DNA of 64,000 nucleotides, from positions 38,365 to 102,364 of the forward strand of contig NZ_JAIEWN010000006.1 of assembly GCF_019599295.1 (NCBI RefSeq), given 5' to 3'. Source of the DNA: Oscillochloris sp. ZM17-4. GTDB taxonomy: Bacteria > Chloroflexota > Chloroflexia > Chloroflexales > Chloroflexaceae. This document shows, piece by piece, positions 24,706-38,190 of this stretch (the stretch's first letter is position 1; each line of letters opens with the position of its first letter). The notes beneath the pieces were generated by a model. The model was not told the DNA's origin, searched no databases, and saw nothing but the letters and a program-made list of their open reading frames with translations. Made by a program: the position numbers and the translations under genes.

Positions 24706-27700
24706 ATGCGCTTTGTCTTTGTGACCACGCAGGATAACTACACCACCGCCCTGCGCGACGCGGCCGCCGCGATCACGCGCGAGCATGGGATCGACGTGTC
24801 GGTCGGCGTCTACATGACCTCGGAGCTGAGCGACCCGGCCATGCGCGGGCGGCTTGAGGAGGACCTGGCGCGGGCCGACTTTATCTTCGGCGGGATGATC
24901 TTTGGCGAGGCGATCGTGCGGCCCCTGGTGGAGCAGCTGGCGAAGGTGAGCTGCCCGGTCTGCATCATCATCAGCAACCCGGCGCTCATCCGGCTCACCC
25001 ACCTGGGCAAGTTCAACCTGGGCATGATCAGCGATGGTAAGGATAAGGACAAAGAGAAGGAGAAGGAGAAGGAGAAGGGGGGCATCAGCAGCATCCTCCA
25101 GTCGCTGAAGCCCAAGCACGGCCACGGCGAGGTCTCGCGCCAGATGAACCTGGTCAAGGGGCTGACCAAGATCCTCAAGTTTCTGCCGGGCCGCTTCCGC
25201 GACCTGCACACCTACGTGTCGGCCCACCAGTTCTGGGTCCACAACACGCCCAAGAACATGGAGCGCATGCTCTGCATGCTGATCGAGCGCTACGTGCCGG
25301 GCTACAAGGGCAAGCTGCCGGTCGAGGACCCCGAGATCTTCCCGGATGTGGCGATCTGGCACCCGGACGCGCCCAAGCCCTTCACCGACATGAAGAGCTA
25401 CCAGAAGTGGCAGAAGGGCCGCCGGCTCAAGCTGGATAAGGGCGTGGCCGGGCTGCTCTCGCTGCGCGTGATCGTCCTCGGCGACAATGTGCGCCACCTG
25501 GCCGGCCTCATCCACGCCCTGGAGAAGCGCGGCGTCGAGGCCCGCCTGGTCTACACCGCCGGCCTCGATGGCCGCCCGGCGATCGAGGCCTTCTTCACCC
25601 AGCCCGCCGGCGGGCGGGCCGAGCCGACGATCGACCTGATCGCCACCACCTCGGGCTTCGCCCTGGTGGGCGGCATGGCCCAGAGCAAGCCCGACGAGGC
25701 CCGCGCGGCCATGGAGGCGCTGAACCTCCCCTTCCTCCAGACTATCCCGCTGGTCTTCCAGAGCGTCGATAGCTGGCTGGCCGACGATCGCGGCCTGAAC
25801 CCGATGCACATCGCTATGAACGTGGCCCTGGCCGAGCTGGAGGGCGCGGCCGAGCCGCTGGTCTACGGCGGGCCGTCGAGCGACTCGGGCGTGGCCGTGC
25901 CGGTGCAGGCTCAGGTCGACCGTTTCGCCGAGCGGGTGGCCCGCCGGATCGCCCTGGGGCGCAAGGCCAACGCCGAGAAGAAGGTGGCCCTGGTGCTCTT
26001 CAACTACCCGCCGAACCTGGGCAGCATCGGCACCGCCGCCTACCTGGACGTGTTCGCCAGCACCTACGAACTGCTCTCGCAGATGCGCGCGGCCGGCTAC
26101 CAGATCGACCTGCCGGCCAGCGCCGACGAGCTGCGCCAGATGCTGGTCGAGGGCAAGGGCGACCCGTCCAGCGCGCCGCTCGTCCACGGCACCGACGCCG
26201 CCGTGGGCGCCTTCCTCTCGCTCGACGACTACCGCAAGCTCTTCCCCGACTATGTGGACATCGAGCCCTTCTGGGGCGCGGCCCCCGGCGAGCTGCTGAG
26301 CGACGGCCGGCGCTTCCAGATCCTCGGCCGCCGGCTGGGCAACGTCTTTGTGGGCGTGCAGCCGACCTTCGGCTACGAGCGCGACCCGATGCGCATGCTG
26401 ATGGCCAAGGACGCCGCGCCGCACCACGGCTTCGCCGCCTTCTACACCTGGATCGATAAGGTCTTTGGCGCGGACGCGGTGGTGCACATGGGCACCCACG
26501 GCGCGCTGGAGTTCATGCCCGGCAAGCAGGCCGGCCTCGGCCCGCAGTGCTGGCCGCCCCGCCTGCTCGGCGGCCTGCCCAACATCTACTACTACTGCGT
26601 GAACAACCCCAGCGAGGGCACGATCGCCCGCCGCCGCGGCGCGGCCACCCTGGTCAGCTACCTGGTGCCGCCGGTGCAGCAGGCCGGGCTCTACAAGGGC
26701 CTGCGCGTCCTCAAGGACAGCATCGATATGTATCGGGCGAAGCCGTCGCCAGAGCTGCTTGAGGATATCCAGGTGCAGGCCGAGCGATTGCAGATTGCAG
26801 ATTGCAGATTGCAGACCGAACAATCTGAAATCTACAATCTGCAATCTGCAATGGACAGCTACATCGCCGCGCTCAGCCACGAGCTGCTCCAGGTCGAGCA
26901 GCGGCTCATCCCGATCGGCCTGCACGTGCTGGGGCGGGCACCCTCGACCGAGGAGCTGGTGGACACCCTGGCCCTGGTGGCGGCCTTCCAGCGGCCCGAC
27001 CCGGGCGCGCCCACCCTGCCCGAGCGGGTCGCCGCCGGCCTGGGCTTCTCCTACGCCGAGCTGGGCGCCGGCCTCAGCCGCGACCCGGTGGCCCAGGACC
27101 GCTACCGCCAGGTTGATACGATCTGCAAGGAGGCCATCCGCAGGTTTATTGCAGATTGCAGATTGCAGATTGCAGATTTGCAGACAGACCAATCTGCAAT
27201 CTACAATCTGCAATCTGCAATCGCCTCCACCAACCTCTACCTGTACGAGACGGCGCAGGTGCCGCCCGACTCGTTGGCCGCGACCTGGCGCCTGCTGGGC
27301 GACCTGCGCGGCAAGCTGACGGTTGACCACGAGACCTCGGGGCTGCTGAACGCCCTCTCGGGCGGCTACACCCCGCCCTCGCCCGGCAACGATGTGGTGC
27401 GCAACCCGGCCGTCGTGCCCACCGGGCGCAACATCCACGGGCTCGACCCCTACCGCATCCCGTCGGCGGCGGCCCAGGTCAGCGGCGCACGGGTGGTGGA
27501 CGATCTGCTGGCCCGCCTGACGAAGGAGCAGGGCCAGATCCCCGAGACGGTGGCGCTCATCCTGTGGGGCACCGATAACATTAAGACCGAGGGCGAGGGC
27601 GTGGCCCAGGCCCTGTCCCTGCTGGGCGCCCGCGCGATCAGCGACGAGCTGGGCAAGGTGGCCGATGTGGCGCTCATCCCGCTGGAGGAGCTGGGCCGCC

Positions 27701-28617
27701 CGCGCGTCGATGTGGTGGCCACCGTCAGCGGCATCTTCCGCGACCTGATGGCTATGCAGGCCCAGCTGATCGATAAGGCCGTGCGTATGGCCGCCGCCGC
27801 CGATGAGCCCGAGGCGATGAACTTCGTGCGCAAGCACACCTTGGCCCAGGCCGCCGAGCTGGGCGTGAGCATCGACGAGGCCGCCTGCCGGGTCTTCTCC
27901 AACGCGCCGGGCACCTACGGGGCCAACGTCAACAACATGGTCGAGAGCGGCTCCTGGGAGGACGACTCCCAGATCGGCGACGTGTTCATGACCCGCAAGG
28001 GCTTCGCGATGGACAAGCGCGGCGAGTGGCAGGCCGCCCGGCCCATCCTGGAGCAGGCGCTGGGCACCGTCCAGGCCACCTTCCAGAACGTAGACAGCGT
28101 CGAGGTCGGCATCAGCGACGTGGACCACTACTACGAGTACCTGGGCGGGGTGACGAAGAGCGTGGAGAAGCTGCGCGGCACCCGCCCGACGGTGATGATG
28201 GCCGAGGTGGAGGCCTTCAGCGGGCCTGGCGGCGGGCGGGTGCGCTCGCTGGAGCAGATGGTGCGCCTGGATAGCCGGGCCAAGCTGCTCAACCCGAAGT
28301 GGTTCGAGGGCATGCTCGCCCACGGCTACGAGGGCGCCCACGAGATCGAGGTGCGCGTCAGCAACACCTACGGCTGGAGCGCCACATCCGGCGCCGTGGA
28401 GGGCTGGGTCTACCAGGGCGTCGCCGAGACCTACCTGCTCGACGAGGCCATGCGCGAGCGGCTGGCCGCGCTCAACCCGCACGCCGCCGCCGGCGTGGCC
28501 CGCCGCCTGCTGGAGGCCAACAGCCGCGGCTTCTGGGACGCCGACGAGGCCACCCTGGAGCAGCTGCGCGAGATCTACGCCGACCTGGAGGATAAGCTGG
28601 AGGGCGTGACGTCCTAA
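24706..28617 (+). CDS. bchH: Magnesium chelatase subunit H
   Basis: 1303 residues, CobN/BchH family. The large subunit binds protoporphyrin IX and inserts magnesium with BchI and BchD, the first dedicated step to bacteriochlorophyll. The N-terminal domain opens RFVFVTTQDNYTTALRDAA; the core holds VLFNYPPNLGSIGTAAYLDV and VVHMGTHGALEFMPGKQAGL; the C-terminus holds NNMVESGSWEDDSQIGDVF. A Lys/Glu-rich stretch (KDKDKEKEKEKEK) occurs near residue 110. Two GATTGCA palindromes are read in frame at residues about 694-716 and 815-839, making it slightly longer than usual. AAGGAG precedes the ATG. BchI and BchD are not in the window. Confidence 0.95.
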   Translation: MRFVFVTTQDNYTTALRDAAAAITREHGIDVSVGVYMTSELSDPAMRGRLEEDLARADFIFGGMIFGEAIVRPLVEQLAKVSCPVCIIISNPALIRLTHLGKFNLGMISDGKDKDKEKEKEKEKGGISSILQSLKPKHGHGEVSRQMNLVKGLTKILKFLPGRFRDLHTYVSAHQFWVHNTPKNMERMLCMLIERYVPGYKGKLPVEDPEIFPDVAIWHPDAPKPFTDMKSYQKWQKGRRLKLDKGVAGLLSLRVIVLGDNVRHLAGLIHALEKRGVEARLVYTAGLDGRPAIEAFFTQPAGGRAEPTIDLIATTSGFALVGGMAQSKPDEARAAMEALNLPFLQTIPLVFQSVDSWLADDRGLNPMHIAMNVALAELEGAAEPLVYGGPSSDSGVAVPVQAQVDRFAERVARRIALGRKANAEKKVALVLFNYPPNLGSIGTAAYLDVFASTYELLSQMRAAGYQIDLPASADELRQMLVEGKGDPSSAPLVHGTDAAVGAFLSLDDYRKLFPDYVDIEPFWGAAPGELLSDGRRFQILGRRLGNVFVGVQPTFGYERDPMRMLMAKDAAPHHGFAAFYTWIDKVFGADAVVHMGTHGALEFMPGKQAGLGPQCWPPRLLGGLPNIYYYCVNNPSEGTIARRRGAATLVSYLVPPVQQAGLYKGLRVLKDSIDMYRAKPSPELLEDIQVQAERLQIADCRLQTEQSEIYNLQSAMDSYIAALSHELLQVEQRLIPIGLHVLGRAPSTEELVDTLALVAAFQRPDPGAPTLPERVAAGLGFSYAELGAGLSRDPVAQDRYRQVDTICKEAIRRFIADCRLQIADLQTDQSAIYNLQSAIASTNLYLYETAQVPPDSLAATWRLLGDLRGKLTVDHETSGLLNALSGGYTPPSPGNDVVRNPAVVPTGRNIHGLDPYRIPSAAAQVSGARVVDDLLARLTKEQGQIPETVALILWGTDNIKTEGEGVAQALSLLGARAISDELGKVADVALIPLEELGRPRVDVVATVSGIFRDLMAMQAQLIDKAVRMAAAADEPEAMNFVRKHTLAQAAELGVSIDEAACRVFSNAPGTYGANVNNMVESGSWEDDSQIGDVFMTRKGFAMDKRGEWQAARPILEQALGTVQATFQNVDSVEVGISDVDHYYEYLGGVTKSVEKLRGTRPTVMMAEVEAFSGPGGGRVRSLEQMVRLDSRAKLLNPKWFEGMLAHGYEGAHEIEVRVSNTYGWSATSGAVEGWVYQGVAETYLLDEAMRERLAALNPHAAAGVARRLLEANSRGFWDADEATLEQLREIYADLEDKLEGVTS
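26786..26852. repeat. GATTGCA heptamer palindrome inside bchH (first)
   Basis: Four direct heptamers (GATTGCA) and about four inverted units with variants (TGAAATC, TACAATC) around the centre GACCGAA. Read as RLQIADCRLQ...IYNLQSAM in BchH. Confidence 0.95.
27148..27222. repeat. GATTGCA heptamer palindrome inside bchH (second)
   Basis: 75 bases, a multiple of three: direct heptamers, a small irregular centre (TTTGCAGACAGACC) and inverted heptamers with one TACAATC variant. Read as FIADCRLQIAD...SAIYNLQSAIA in BchH. Confidence 0.95.
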
Positions 28618-33075: not shown

Positions 33076-34515
33076 CTACGGCGCGCGGATCGCCTGGATG
33101 GCGGCGATGATCTGCGGGTCCGCATCGGGGGGGTAGCGCCACCACTCCGCGTCGACGGTGCGGTCGGGGATGACGCCGCGGCCCTCGATCAGGGTGCCGT
33201 CGGGGAGCCGGTAGGCCACCACCGCCAGCAGGATGCGCGACCCGTCCTCGAAGTCGTAGGCGTAGAGGTTCTCGGTGTTGCCGGCGCTGGGCAGGCCGGC
33301 CACCTTGGCCCGGCCGAGCACCTGCATGCCGGCGGCGAACATCTCGGCGGCGCTGACCGTCTCGGGGCCGGTGAGCACGGCGATCGGCACGCCGCCCATG
33401 CCTGGGATCGTCCTGCCCGCGGGGATGCGCTGATCGTCGCTCTCGTTTCGCCCGCTGGTGCTGCCGATCGAGCCGCCGTCATGGAAGAGCGCGATCGTGT
33501 TGGCCATCAGGTGGACGTAGCCGCCCGAGTTGGAGCGCACATCGATCAGCAGCCCCTCCAGCGGGCCAGCGGCCAGCAGCCCCTCCACGGCCTCGCGCAC
33601 GTGGGCGTCGACCGATTCGACATAGAAGCTGGGGATGGTGACGAGGCCGATCGTGCCGCCGTCGAGGCGCTGGGCGGTGACCCGGTTAAAGGCGTCGAGG
33701 TCGATCACCTCGCGGATGACGATGACGACGCGCTCGGCCTGGCCGGGCGAGATGATGCCGAGGCGCACGCCGGTGCCGGGCTGGCCGCGCACCTCGCCGA
33801 TCGGGCCGCTGGGGCCGAAGGCCGCGCTGTCGAGGTAGGCGACCCCGTTGATCGAGGTGAGCAGATCGCGCGGCCTGATCCCGGCGCGCTCGGCCGGGCC
33901 GCCGGGCACCACGCTGCTGACCATGCCGCCCTCCTCCACATCGCGGATCTCGGCGCCGATGCCGCCGTAGCGCAGCTTGCCCGCGAACTCGGCCTGCTGC
34001 TCTGCCACCTCCTGGGGCGACTCGAAGCGCGAGTGGTCGTCGCCCAGGAGGTCGATCATCTGGCGCATGAGGCCGTAGAACGCGTCGGGCGTCGTGGCCG
34101 CCGCGACCAGCGGCGCGTACTCCTCGCGCGTCGCCTCCCAGTCCACCCCCCGGTAGTCCTCGTAGAGGTAGTTATCGCGCACCGTCTGCCAGATATCCTG
34201 GAAGATCCGCTCGCGCTCATCGGCGGCCAGGGGGGCCAGGGTGGGCGTCGGGTCGAGGGGGGCGATGGTGGGCGCGGGCGTGGGCGGGCGGGTGGGCCGC
34301 GCCGTCGAGGGCCGCGCGGCGGTGGACGTGGGCGCCTGGGCGAGCTCCGTGGGCGCGGCGACGGTGGGCACGGGGGGCATCGTGGGCACGGCGGCCGCCG
34401 TCGCGCTGGGCACAGGCATCGCCGTGTGCACGGCGACCGCGCGCGACGAGAGCCCGCAGGCCACGAGGGCGAGGGCGGCCAGGGCGAGGGCTGCGGCGCG
34501 TGTGAGGCGGTTCAT
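33076..34515 (-). CDS. S41 family C-terminal-processing peptidase, lipoprotein
   Basis: 479 residues. A lipoprotein signal (RAAALALAALALVAC) is followed by a Pro/Thr/Ala-rich linker (about residues 30-110), which should hold the enzyme outside the membrane. Then comes a helical segment, a PDZ domain (GGIGAEIRDVEEGGMVSSVV to LLTSINGVAYLD), and the protease core with LLIDVRSNSGGYVHL and the serine in GPETVSAAEMFAAGM; the lysine partner is likely in GRAKVAGLP. Family members degrade or trim exported proteins. The start at 34515 gives a proper signal peptide; the open frame runs on upstream into the MITE-like element without similarity. It converges with the transporter gene. Confidence 0.92.
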   Translation of the reverse strand: MNRLTRAAALALAALALVACGLSSRAVAVHTAMPVPSATAAAVPTMPPVPTVAAPTELAQAPTSTAARPSTARPTRPPTPAPTIAPLDPTPTLAPLAADERERIFQDIWQTVRDNYLYEDYRGVDWEATREEYAPLVAAATTPDAFYGLMRQMIDLLGDDHSRFESPQEVAEQQAEFAGKLRYGGIGAEIRDVEEGGMVSSVVPGGPAERAGIRPRDLLTSINGVAYLDSAAFGPSGPIGEVRGQPGTGVRLGIISPGQAERVVIVIREVIDLDAFNRVTAQRLDGGTIGLVTIPSFYVESVDAHVREAVEGLLAAGPLEGLLIDVRSNSGGYVHLMANTIALFHDGGSIGSTSGRNESDDQRIPAGRTIPGMGGVPIAVLTGPETVSAAEMFAAGMQVLGRAKVAGLPSAGNTENLYAYDFEDGSRILLAVVAYRLPDGTLIEGRGVIPDRTVDAEWWRYPPDADPQIIAAIQAIRAP

Positions 34516-34557
34516 AGTATAGGTATCATACCATGGGGGCTGGGTGTTGGGGGTTGG

Positions 34558-34733
34558 CAGGGCATGGGCAACGTCGCTGGCGGCTGAAGCCGCGTCGCGG
34601 GGGCCTGCGGCCGACCGCCCACCTTCGTGGGCGGATCCGGCGTCGGCCTGCGCCGACGCCCGGCGCAGCGCGCCATGCCGGCGCGACGTCAGTCGCCAGC
34701 CAGGGGGGCGCGCAGGACGTTGCACATGCCCTG
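34558..34733. mobile_element. MITE-like palindromic element, copy 2 (long form)
   Basis: 176 bp between CAGGGCATGGGCAACGTC and GACGTTGCACATGCCCTG (18-bp inverted ends, one mismatch). The interior has further inverted repeats (GCCCACC TTC GTGGGCG; GGCGTCGG/CCGACGCC). It carries about 50 bp that copy 1 lacks. It sits between the divergent S41 protease and surface protein genes. Confidence 0.85.
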
Positions 34734-34773
34734 ATCATACCCCCTAATATACTATCGGCCTACGTTTGTACTG

Positions 34774-34782
34774 TGGTATAAT
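34774..34782 (+). promoter_or_regulatory. Extended -10 promoter for the riboswitch-surface protein unit
   Basis: TGGTATAAT is a full extended -10 element. No convincing -35 box lies 17 bases upstream. Transcription would start near 34789, just before the riboswitch P1 strand. Confidence 0.6.
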
Positions 34783-34795
34783 GCGCGTCCTTTTC

Positions 34796-34940
34796 GGACA
34801 AGCGCTCTAACTTATAAATATCAGATGCAATGAAGCGTGATCTCGCTTCGCCTGGGCTGTGCGCTGGCGAAACTGGGCACCAGAGACACGCAGAGCGAGT
34901 GGTGCAACCGGCTGTCGATTGATCGGCAGCCGGTTTTTTT
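34796..34940 (+). ncRNA. Candidate c-di-GMP-II riboswitch with terminator
   Basis: The core GGCGAAACUGGGCACC ... GGUGCAACCGG at 34866-34911 matches what I recall of the class II c-di-GMP aptamer (GGGCAC, a variable hairpin, then GUGCAACCG). GCACC pairs with GGUGC. GACA-A-GC at 34797-34803 can form P1 with GCUGUC at 34911-34916. That 3' strand is also the left arm of a 13-bp terminator stem (34907-34919 with 34922-34934) followed by seven T. Ligand binding would therefore block termination (ON switch). An extra hairpin at 34832-34849 would be an insertion. A second alternative stem, GCGAGTGG (34895-34902) with CCACTCGC (34943-34950), spans the terminator. Confidence 0.6.
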
Positions 34941-34970
34941 GCCCACTCGCCTGCTCCGGAGGTCAGTAGT

Positions 34971-37241
34971 ATGAAATCCATTTCTTCCCTGTGCTACGCT
35001 CATGCACTCGTATTTCTCTCGGTTACGCTGATACTTGTCGCCGCCATGCCCACCCCCGCCTCCAAGGCGGCTGAGCTACCACCCGTAAGCTTGCCGATCT
35101 TCATCCAGACCAACGGCGCCAGCGCAGATATCGGCCTTGGGGACTGGTACAGCAGCGACCAGAACGGATTTGGCGGAGGGTACCACTACCTCGGCATAGA
35201 GATCCCATGCCGCTGGCCATCCACGCTCGATGTACACATCGACCTGTTCAGCCCGGAGATCAACACCTTCGCCCCGCCGCCTCGTATCGACGAGGTCGGG
35301 GGAGCCACGCTCAGCGATACCGTCTTCGAGCTCTATGATCAGCATACGCCATACGGCGGGCTGAGCACGCCTGGGCCAGGCGCCCCAGGCAGCCTCATCC
35401 AGCTCCCCTTTACCCCGGTGACAGGCCAGGCCGAGCAGTGGGTGCGCTTCTACACGCTGCCCGCCCCGGTGGCATGCGGCACCTATCTGCTGCGCGCCGA
35501 GACTCTCGGCGACGACCAGAACGGCTGGCGCCTGCGCGTCGGCCACGACAATGACAGCGACCCGAACAACGCCATGCCGGCGAACTACGACAACCCCGAC
35601 GGCAGCGCCGGCACCGGCGATGAGCTCGCGATCAGCATCGAGCAGACGACCTACCAGCACAACGAGCTCGGCCAGGTTGAGTGCCTGCTGAACTACCAGT
35701 ATGTGCGCCCCAATTTGCCCGATGTAAGCTTCCATAACTTCGACCTCGACAATAATGAGCGGGTCACCTACTACCCGCCAAGCGCGACGCTCGACCTCCA
35801 GGGGAATCCAGCGCCCGGGAGCATTGCGGGGACCGTATCGGGCTCCTCGGTCTGGAACGGCGGCACGCAGACGAGCCGCGGCACTGGCGACGTGGTGCTC
35901 AACCCCGAGCCCGGCTGGTGGCGACTGGTGACCTGCGTGAAGGACGACAACCAATTCAACCAGGAGGGGCAGACAGGCGTGCCGAGCTTCCTCGAGCCAG
36001 TGCCCGAGCCCGATATGGCGATCAGTAAAGATAACCAGCGCACCCTGGTGTCTGCCGGCGATGTGCTTACCTACACGATCCGCTTTAGCAACAACTCCCC
36101 CACCACAAAGCAGGTTCCGGGCGCCGCCTTCGACGTGATGATCACCGACACGCTTCCCCTGAGCCTCGGGTTTCTCAGCTGCCGGCTGATGACGCCGGGC
36201 CTGTCCGGGAGCTGCGCAAATAGCGGCCAGGATGTGACCTTCACCCTCGACGACCCGGTGTTCGCCGGCGCATCGGGCGAGGTGGAGGTCGTCGCCGAGG
36301 TGCAGCCGGGCGCGAGCGGTCAGGTGCTCAACGTGGCGACGATGGACTACACCGATCTCCTGGGGAACCCCCGCCCAACGGAGCGCGCCGAGGATCTTGA
36401 CCTGATCCCCGCTGCGGCCCCCCTGCCCTCCATCGTAGTCGATAAGACTGCGAGCCTATCGCGGGATAACAATGGCGACGGGAAGGCCGACCCGGCTGAC
36501 GAGATCGCGTACACGATCAGCATCACGAACACCGGACCGACGACGGCGACGGGCGTCCTGCTGCGCGACGCGCCAGACGCAAACACCACGCTGGTGATCG
36601 GCACCGTCGCCATCGACCCAGCGGGGGGGCTGGTGCTTCACGGGAATAGCCTGGGCGACCGCTATGTTGAGGCGCAGATCGGCATGATCGCGCCCGGCGA
36701 CAGCGCCCAGGTCAGCTTCACCGCACGGGTCAACAACACGCTCCTGGCGGGCACAACCACGATCGCCAACCAGGCGGTCGTGCGCGGCGATAACGTGCCC
36801 GACACCCCAAGCGACGATCCGAGCACGCCCGAGCCGGATGACCCCACCGATGTTCCGGCGGGAGGATCGCCTGGGGGCGGCCCACCAACGGCGATCACGC
36901 TCACCGACTTTCGCGTCGTGACAGATAAGCACGCAGTGACGGTGCTCTGGTCCACCGGCAGCGAGATTCGCACGGTCGGCTTCGAGATCCTGCGCGCCGC
37001 CACAGCTGATCAGGCAGGCGCCGTGCGACTAGGGCCGATCATACCGGCCCAGGGGGTCGGCGGGGGCGGGGCGAGCTACCGCTACGCCGACAGCTCCGCA
37101 TCGCCCGACGAGACGTATTACTACTGGCTGGTAGAGCGCGAGAGCGGCGGGGCAGCATCGCGCTACGGCCCGGTCGCGAGACCGGCAACGGCGGCGGATG
37201 CCGGGGGCTACCAGGTCTATCTGCCGCTCGCCATACGCTAA
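34971..37241 (+). CDS. Secreted surface protein with DUF11 repeats
   Basis: 756 residues with a signal peptide (hydrophobic stretch about 10-26, ending near ASKA). The first 330 residues are a Trp/Tyr-rich region I do not recognise. Two DUF11-type domains follow: about 345-460 (MAISKDNQRTLVSAGDVLTY) and 485-610 (VVDKTASLSRDNNGDGKADP, with a calcium-loop-like DNNGDGKAD). A Pro/Asp-rich linker and a fibronectin-like end domain (FRVVTDKHAVTVLWSTGSEI) come last. The very end is QVYLPLAIR, a tail style I associate with Chloroflexota exported proteins. It is probably a cell-surface or matrix protein. GGAGG lies nine bases before the ATG. Controlled by the candidate riboswitch upstream. Confidence 0.8.
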   Translation: MKSISSLCYAHALVFLSVTLILVAAMPTPASKAAELPPVSLPIFIQTNGASADIGLGDWYSSDQNGFGGGYHYLGIEIPCRWPSTLDVHIDLFSPEINTFAPPPRIDEVGGATLSDTVFELYDQHTPYGGLSTPGPGAPGSLIQLPFTPVTGQAEQWVRFYTLPAPVACGTYLLRAETLGDDQNGWRLRVGHDNDSDPNNAMPANYDNPDGSAGTGDELAISIEQTTYQHNELGQVECLLNYQYVRPNLPDVSFHNFDLDNNERVTYYPPSATLDLQGNPAPGSIAGTVSGSSVWNGGTQTSRGTGDVVLNPEPGWWRLVTCVKDDNQFNQEGQTGVPSFLEPVPEPDMAISKDNQRTLVSAGDVLTYTIRFSNNSPTTKQVPGAAFDVMITDTLPLSLGFLSCRLMTPGLSGSCANSGQDVTFTLDDPVFAGASGEVEVVAEVQPGASGQVLNVATMDYTDLLGNPRPTERAEDLDLIPAAAPLPSIVVDKTASLSRDNNGDGKADPADEIAYTISITNTGPTTATGVLLRDAPDANTTLVIGTVAIDPAGGLVLHGNSLGDRYVEAQIGMIAPGDSAQVSFTARVNNTLLAGTTTIANQAVVRGDNVPDTPSDDPSTPEPDDPTDVPAGGSPGGGPPTAITLTDFRVVTDKHAVTVLWSTGSEIRTVGFEILRAATADQAGAVRLGPIIPAQGVGGGGASYRYADSSASPDETYYYWLVERESGGAASRYGPVARPATAADAGGYQVYLPLAIR

Positions 37242-37354
37242 TAAGATCACGGTTGAGTATGGTACTATTCCAGAACATATCACGTTCGTCTCCGTCCGCG
37301 CTGGGGTGATGAGGCCTGTCATACGGACTGATGAGTTGCGAAGGAGCAGAGATA

Positions 37355-38158
37355 ATGAACATCGCGTTTTCGCGGGTGGCCCTGTTTGTCACCGGCCTCG
37401 CATTCATGCTCACCGCGCTGTTGATGGCGCTCGCCGGCCCTGTGGGAGCCGCTCCCAGCATGCTCGTCACAGAGACCGCGTCTGTTGAGCCTGCGACGCG
37501 CACCGCGACACCGATCATCGCCGCGACCAGCACCCCCATCCCGCCAACGGAGACCAGCCCTCCCTCCCCGCCAACCGCGACCAGCACCCCCGTCCCTAGC
37601 GGCGGCGGCGGCGGAAGCAACCCCACGAACACGCCTGTGCCGACCAGCACCCCGGAGGCGACGATGACGCCCGTCATACAGATCGCTGATCCGGCGATCA
37701 CCAAGTCGGTGAGTGTTAGCGCCGCGCAGGTCGGCGACACCGTCGAATTCACCCTCACCGCGACAAACTTGGGCAACGCACCAGCGAGCAACGTGGTCGT
37801 TGAGGACACGCTGCCCAGCTTCCTCGCCCTCGATGGAGTCAGCGCCACCCGAGGCACCGTCACCGTAAGCGGGGCGACTATCCGGGTTGATATTGGCGAC
37901 CTGGCCCCAGGCGAGGTTGTGACGGTCACGATCACCGCGCGGGTGGTGGCCTCAGCCGCCCCGCCAAACAATAGCAATGTCGCCACGATCATCTCCGACA
38001 GCGCCACGGACGACCCGGGCAACAACAGCAGCTCAGTCTCGCTGACCGTCGATGCGCCCCCGCCGGCGAGCCTGCCCAACACCGGCAACCCCGATGGCGG
38101 GGCATCCCTGCTCATGCTGCTGGCCCTCGGTGTCGGCCTCAACCCTCGCTCCTACTGA
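37355..38158 (+). CDS. LPNTG-tailed surface protein with one DUF11 domain
   Basis: 267 residues. A signal peptide (to about residue 32, GPVGAA) leads to a Thr/Pro/Ser-rich stalk (about 40-115), likely a flexible or glycosylated spacer. One DUF11 domain follows (ADPAITKSVSVSAAQVGDTVE onward) and then LPNTG, a hydrophobic run (ASLLMLLALGVGL) and a short tail NPRSY. This is the three-part layout of a sortase substrate, though the tail has just one Arg. A sortase would link it to cell wall; none is seen here. AAGGAG lies eight bases before the ATG at 37355. Probably co-transcribed with the DUF11 protein upstream, since no terminator is seen between them. Confidence 0.8.
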   Translation: MNIAFSRVALFVTGLAFMLTALLMALAGPVGAAPSMLVTETASVEPATRTATPIIAATSTPIPPTETSPPSPPTATSTPVPSGGGGGSNPTNTPVPTSTPEATMTPVIQIADPAITKSVSVSAAQVGDTVEFTLTATNLGNAPASNVVVEDTLPSFLALDGVSATRGTVTVSGATIRVDIGDLAPGEVVTVTITARVVASAAPPNNSNVATIISDSATDDPGNNSSSVSLTVDAPPPASLPNTGNPDGGASLLMLLALGVGLNPRSY

Positions 38159-38161
38159 TGG

Positions 38162-38190
38162 TTGACAATTCTTTTTGGGCGGTGTATACT
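38162..38190 (+). promoter_or_regulatory. Strong sigma70 promoter before the LacI gene
   Basis: TTGACA, a 17-bp spacer and TATACT: both hexamers at or one base from consensus. Directly after the -10 box, GGAAACCGTTTTAC (38193-38206) resembles half-symmetric LacI-family operators and overlaps the expected start site. A 220-base leader follows, with an imperfect inverted repeat TTTATGG-TGCC/GGCA-CTCCATAAA at about 38269-38301 and no convincing gene. Confidence 0.75.

Follow-up and report, generated by a model that had tools for sequence, protein, structure and literature searches.

A predicted class II c-di-GMP riboswitch in front of DUF11 and LPNTG surface protein genes in Oscillochloris sp. 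ZM17-4

In the window, the whole 64,000-nucleotide stretch of Oscillochloris sp. ZM17-4 DNA analysed here, the leader at 34777-34970 is very probably (at a probability of about 0.88) a class II c-di-GMP riboswitch that would act by transcription antitermination. It has a known role and belongs to a known class, and is predicted to switch on the genes of two surface proteins, one with DUF11 domains and one with an LPNTG motif (Table 1). Judged from its sequence, the element belongs to the c-di-GMP-II clan and is a new example of that class, filed as a c-di-GMP-II-type aptamer because of its structural features and not its score. It is not described in the titles and abstract openings of open-licence papers on c-di-GMP riboswitches or c-di-GMP surface proteins in Chloroflexi/Chloroflexota.

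Table 1. Features of the leader and its predicted target genes, in window coordinates
Feature	Position	Strand	Basis or remark
TATAAT -10 with TG-G ahead (extended -10), probable riboswitch promoter	34777-34782	+	read directly
c-di-GMP-II aptamer	34814-34922	+	RF03169 and RF01786 matches, Rfam clan CL00127
P3, 5' strand GCGUG and 3' strand CACGC	34835-34839 / 34887-34891	+	pairing in alignment A1
Extra hairpin in P3 loop, UUCGCC/GGCGAA	34847-34871	+	by eye; in ZM16-3 too, letters changed
GCACC, pseudoknot 5' strand	34877-34881	+	pairs with 34901-34905
GGUGC, pseudoknot 3' strand	34901-34905	+	pairs with 34877-34881
AACCG, pocket residues A69 A70 C71 C72 G73 (3Q3Z numbering)	34906-34910	+	contacts from excerpted text of PMC7288161
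Intrinsic terminator: 13-bp stem, 4-nt loop, T run	34906-34940	+	pattern scan, fold
GGAGG ribosome-binding site	34958-34962	+	read directly; conserved in three genomes
Target gene 1: 756-aa signal-peptide protein, DUF11 domains, ends YLPLAIR	34971-37241	+	
Probable target gene 2: DUF11 protein, C-terminal LPNTG	37331-38158 (start perhaps 37355)	+	

The aptamer and its ligand pocket

The class and the location put forward in the original prediction are borne out: the letters on which it relied are present (read directly, CUGGGCACC at 34873-34881 and GGUGCAACCGG at 34901-34911), and the clan match falls at the same place. An Infernal search had been proposed as the check, and it gave a divided answer. 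RF03169 (c-di-GMP-II-GAG), the sole match of the Rfam curated search of the whole window, scored 42.4 bits and so exceeded its gathering score of 40, whereas RF01786 (c-di-GMP-II), in a permissive search of 34500-35200 (701 bases), reached 43.7 bits (E 3.6e-8) against a gathering score of 53.5, a shortfall of about 10 bits that counts against the riboswitch reading. Across the whole 6.69-Mb genome (182 contigs, 98.6% complete) each of the two models finds this one place at E<=1, RF01786 doing so with E 8.2e-8. No RF01786 match was found at E<=0.001 among 14 control genomes, nor a class I c-di-GMP riboswitch in this genome at E<=0.01.

The structure was examined in an alignment (A1) of 42 sequences, namely the window and 41 aptamers of its order and phylum, from which a covariance model (R1) was built; the R1 scores of A1 members accordingly follow by construction. 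Each of the 42 sequences forms all five pairs of GCACC/GGUGC, and at every one of the five both partners vary (GC/UA/AU, CG/UA, AU/GC, CG/UA, UA/CG/GC); the 3' strands of both P2 and P3 lie enclosed between the two strands of this pairing. This complete pairing and these compensatory changes identify GCACC/GGUGC as the pseudoknot of the class. The pairing noticed originally is therefore real, but it is not the stem of a hairpin, and the hairpin drawn between GGGCAC and GUGC was wrong in detail. When the isolated aptamer is folded without modelling pseudoknots, the minimum-energy structure pairs GCACC/GGUGC as a hairpin, and for this reason a reader without a covariance model would see one. Folded in this pseudoknot-free way, the isolated aptamer is no stabler than shuffles (z 0.74), which counts against the riboswitch reading.

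P2 and P3 are backed by compensatory changes as well: 94.4% of P2 cells and 94.8% of P3 cells are paired in A1, and P3 has both-sided changes at five of its five pairs. The covariation score of the whole structure with its pseudoknot is 0.580, against 0.182 for shuffled and at most 0.132 for slid versions. The eleven-pair P1 of the family is only 59.4% paired across A1, a further point against the riboswitch reading; in the window it starts at 34814 and is solid only in its inner three pairs, CAG/CUG (34822-34824 / 34912-34914), with four of the eleven model pairs non-standard. A different P1 had been proposed, GACAAGC at 34797-34803 with GCUGUC; it can be drawn, yet it is not conserved and its 5' strand is absent from Chloroflexales bacterium ZM16-3, and it was rejected on these grounds.

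According to the excerpted text of PMC7288161, the ligand contacts in structure 3Q3Z are A13, A14, U37, G39, U60, A61, C68, A69, A70, C71, C72, G73 and A74. The pocket was placed in the window by register rather than by structure superposition, C68-A74 corresponding to aptamer positions 92-98, for which the window has C A A C C G G. The contact residues A69, A70 and G73 are thus present as A93, A94 and G97, and in A1 A93 occurs in 41 of 42 sequences, A94 in 40 of 42, and C95, C96 and G97 in 42 of 42 each. Position 74 is G in the window as against A in 3Q3Z; of the 42 sequences, 22 have G there and 19 have A. By these residues the window's pocket is of the standard type, and given the A-A-G at 69/70/73 the ligand is taken to be c-di-GMP.

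Terminator, target genes and orthologous loci

The terminator sharing the 3' strand of P1, as first proposed, holds up. Its stem, AACCGGCTGTCGA / TCGGCAGCCGGTT (34906-34918 / 34923-34935), is followed by seven T at 34934-34940; the pattern scan found one such terminator against 0.3 expected in shuffles, and its fold of -22.6 kcal/mol (z -6.15) was equalled in stability by 0 of 200 shuffles. The 5' arm begins at A69 (34906) and is built of the ligand pocket and the P1 3' strand. Since the terminator starts inside the pocket, bound c-di-GMP and the terminator would be mutually exclusive, and an ON switch is the direction that this model predicts. At low c-di-GMP the nascent RNA would form the 13-bp hairpin (34906-34935) and the U run, and transcription would stop 5' of the genes. 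At high c-di-GMP the aptamer would close its pseudoknot and P1 and sequester AACCGGCUG (34906-34914) within the pocket and in P1; with AACCGGCUG so held, the terminator hairpin would be blocked and the polymerase would continue into the DUF11 gene, read-through probably reaching the LPNTG protein gene too.

The pattern scan for promoters found no full sigma-70 site at the riboswitch promoter; TATAAT/TACAAT and GC[GA]CG[CT]CCTTTT are conserved in ZM16-3 and in the genome G032. Downstream, the DUF11 surface gene followed by an LPNTG protein is as the original prediction had it, and two other genomes have the genes in the same order. On the + strand, the stretch between the two genes showed neither a promoter-like nor a terminator-like site, and a good promoter-like site lies 3' of gene 2, at 38162-38190. 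We infer that the LPNTG gene is co-transcribed with gene 1, and the two proteins may serve in surface attachment or matrix. One search of genome contigs found no relatives of the DUF11 protein; a second search, over genomes, did find them. Three sortase domains are encoded in the genome; one of them lies about 0.8 kb beyond the window's left end.

Two observations concern the protein ends. The C-terminal module of gene 1 (36879-37238, residues 637-756, ending YLPLAIR) matches segments of many other large proteins of the order at 40-48% identity, in open frames of up to 6426 aa, and is perhaps a shared sorting module. The LPNTG protein ends in GLNPRSY (window 38100-38158), while its ZM16-3 ortholog has a longer hydrophobic stretch and RRRRV, so that the sorting signal of the window protein looks shortened.

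Orthologous loci were compared in ZM16-3, which was taken as one genome with the same-genus genome G034 since the aptamer coordinates of the two differ by no more than one base, and in G032. Identity of gene 1 is 76% in ZM16-3/G034 and 55% in G032; that of gene 2, beside it, is 62% in ZM16-3 and 48% in G032. Promoter, aptamer, overlapping terminator, Shine-Dalgarno sequence and both genes are kept in the same order in ZM16-3/G034. G032 keeps both genes, but its aptamer is a 14.5-bit 3' remnant only, which counts against the riboswitch reading; with that remnant alone, the G032 leader was rejected as a diverged switch. No aptamer was found near nine more distant gene 1 orthologs (L049-L057), another point against the riboswitch reading, although two of them, L049 and L057, have little upstream sequence. 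Given the remnant in G032 and the lack of aptamers around these nine, the window riboswitch looks lineage-specific.

Alternative readings of the element

The window aptamer might be a c-di-GMP-II-GAG variant with altered ligand preference, RF03169 being the only family that exceeds its gathering score. RF03169 and RF03170 do share clan and fold with the window, but both have G at position 69, where the window has A, and RF03170 (GCG) has C at position 70, again A in the window. We read the names GAG and GCG as residues 69/70/73, a reading of our own taken from the model consensus and the best-matching members: among scanned aptamers, those with AGACCG, AGACCC or GGACCC (L011, L151, L177; L011 has AGACCG) match GAG best, and those with AGCCC[GC] or GGCCCG match GCG best (for example L134 with AGCCCG and L114 with GGCCCG). 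The G at position 69 that marks GAG is absent from the window, whose A-A-G is that of 111 of the 151 phylum aptamers among the matches listed. The RF01786 bit score is, moreover, slightly the higher of the two, the threshold of the GAG model merely being lower. With A at residue 69 the GAG label was rejected as a threshold effect, and a variant of altered preference appears very unlikely.

Somewhat less improbable, though still unlikely, is a decayed or constitutive element in which the aptamer is recognisable and switching has been lost. The weak outer P1, the score below the RF01786 cut-off and the G032 ortholog that retains the 3' part alone would all fit such decay, and non-functional c-di-GMP riboswitches are reported in Clostridioides difficile (excerpted text of PMC6366702); against it, pocket, pseudoknot and terminator are intact, and they are kept in ZM16-3 despite a protein identity of 76%. 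A further alternative is a plain terminator or attenuator with no link to c-di-GMP that resembles an aptamer by chance. In its favour, no other part of the fold is as stable as the terminator, but we regard it as exceedingly improbable: the match is single in 6.69 Mb at the whole-genome E-value given above, the pseudoknot is complete, and the same element lies 5' of the orthologous gene in ZM16-3. A working antitermination switch of the standard c-di-GMP-II type stays the preferred reading.

Class II aptamers in Chloroflexota and known systems

RF01786 matches at E<=1e-4 occur in at least 97 of 400 Chloroflexota genomes and above the cut-off in at least 48 of 400, which makes the cut-off a strict one for Chloroflexota. 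In the window's order, 10 of 82 genomes have a match at E<=0.001. Our census comprises 151 aptamers among the matches listed, which are not independent, many coming from one family of genomes. Left out of it were the rows G170:C46, G441:C243:34129, G393:C61, G272:C49, G306:C39, G403:C14, G243:C14, G332:C85 and G314:C42, and a spurious row (L023:2366-2446) was dropped from alignment A2 before counting.

Among the matches listed, an overlapping terminator, with its 5' arm on the pocket or P1, was found for 91 of 150 testable aptamers against 17 of 750 mononucleotide shuffles; within the order it was found for 6 of 12 aptamers (the window, L006, L010, L004, L007 and L009). For 143 of the 151 aptamers an ORF of 60 codons or more starts within 600 nt, and a hydrophobic N-terminus was scored in 117 of the 143 downstream genes, compared with 6 of 39 control ORFs taken upstream (again among the matches listed), the score being a simple rule of our own rather than a signal-peptide predictor, passed also by 15 of the 40 longest window ORFs, and the controls being the longest upstream ORFs, which may include false ones. 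By this measure, the c-di-GMP-II class precedes genes of putative secreted or membrane proteins throughout Chloroflexota. The aptamers L002, L003 and L005, of Candidatus Chloroploca asiatica and two relatives, likewise lie 5' of secreted proteins; no overlapping terminator was detected at these three, which points to a different expression platform.

Grouped by residues 69/70/73, the 151 aptamers among the matches listed comprise AAG 111, ACG 17, GAG 13, GAC 3, GCC 2 and GCG 2, with ACC, AAA and ATG once each. G73 is thus changed to C in a few. The ACG aptamers, in which C replaces A70 with A69 and G73 kept, are L008, L009, L119, L109, L099, L126, L132, L131, L106, L165, L154, L073, L066, L063, L115, L108 and L161. 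For those scanned, the best model was RF01786, once GCG, and no Rfam family of their own was found. We put forward tentatively, as a wider reading that may well prove wrong, that the window element (the sole c-di-GMP riboswitch found in its genome, one of class II and none of class I) is a dedicated RNA link to a DUF11/LPNTG coat, and that the class II switches of Chloroflexota, their pocket diversified to include an A70C 'ACG' form that might read another ligand, together make up a large ON regulon for secreted and membrane proteins.

Among the matches listed, 27 of the 143 class II loci in Chloroflexota are followed by a long gene whose product looks like an HD-GYP-type membrane protein (HD_5, some with MASE9), an assignment made by Pfam for 5 of the 27 and by BLAST for the remainder, with L116 excluded as a weak 28th match. 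These loci are L018-L022, L026-L029, L031-L033, L035, L058, L065, L067, L068, L070, L072-L074, L076, L098, L101, L135, L139 and L155, and the protein is probably a c-di-GMP phosphodiesterase under c-di-GMP control. Their leaders (L027 and L028, for example) hold two tiny ORFs between the riboswitch and the HD-GYP gene: a short one, 8-10 aa long with the ending K[GPA][WFY], at 25 of 27 loci, and a hydrophobic one of about 28-33 aa ending [KR][GP][FWLY] or similar at 26 of 27. At 10 of 24 loci the two peptides end in the same two residues, where 4.9 loci would be expected (P 0.0007 by permutation, relatedness not corrected), and differences by codon position in the longer ORF (0.43/0.30/0.64 in 15 sequences) fit a coding sequence. 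The pair is possibly a riboswitch-controlled peptide signal; no literature title matched such a pair.

The ZM17-4 genome could supply the ligand. GGDEF and EAL proteins had been named as something to look for, and 21 GGDEF domains (with GG[DE]EF intact in 15 of 20 retrieved) and three EAL domains, each adjoining GGDEF domains, were found. As to the host, the window encodes at 24706-28617 a BchH-like CobN/magnesium-chelatase protein with DUF3479, whose best segments share 85% identity with the ZM16-3 protein and 79% with that of Candidatus Oscillochloris fontis, which suggests a phototroph among the filamentous phototrophic Chloroflexales.

With the RF01786 class the window shares the pseudoknot, P2, P3, AACCG, the GGGCAC/GUGC motif, a site in the 5' UTR, a terminator on the P1 3' strand and a surface-protein target; it differs in its long extra P3-loop hairpin, weak outer P1 and Chloroflexales host. 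In C. difficile, as given in the excerpted text of PMC6366702, each of the four class II switches works as an ON switch and two serve sortase-anchored surface proteins, Cdi-2-3 and Cdi-2-1 preceding the sortase substrates CD630_28310 and CD630_32460; the excerpted text of PMC6447587 likewise gives positive control of CD2831 with a type II switch. The two Cdi-2 switches have in common with the window a class II aptamer and a surface protein with a sorting motif, but host and protein family are unrelated, and positive control by c-di-GMP is reported there from experiments whereas in the window it is predicted.

If the reading is true, the element would offer a direct handle on the role of c-di-GMP in filamentous green phototrophs, one RNA governing two surface-protein genes. 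With the curated Rfam cut-offs, class II aptamers of Chloroflexota can be missed, as by RF01786, or given a wrong label, as with GAG, and the surface-protein regulon in this phylum may therefore exceed what is annotated.
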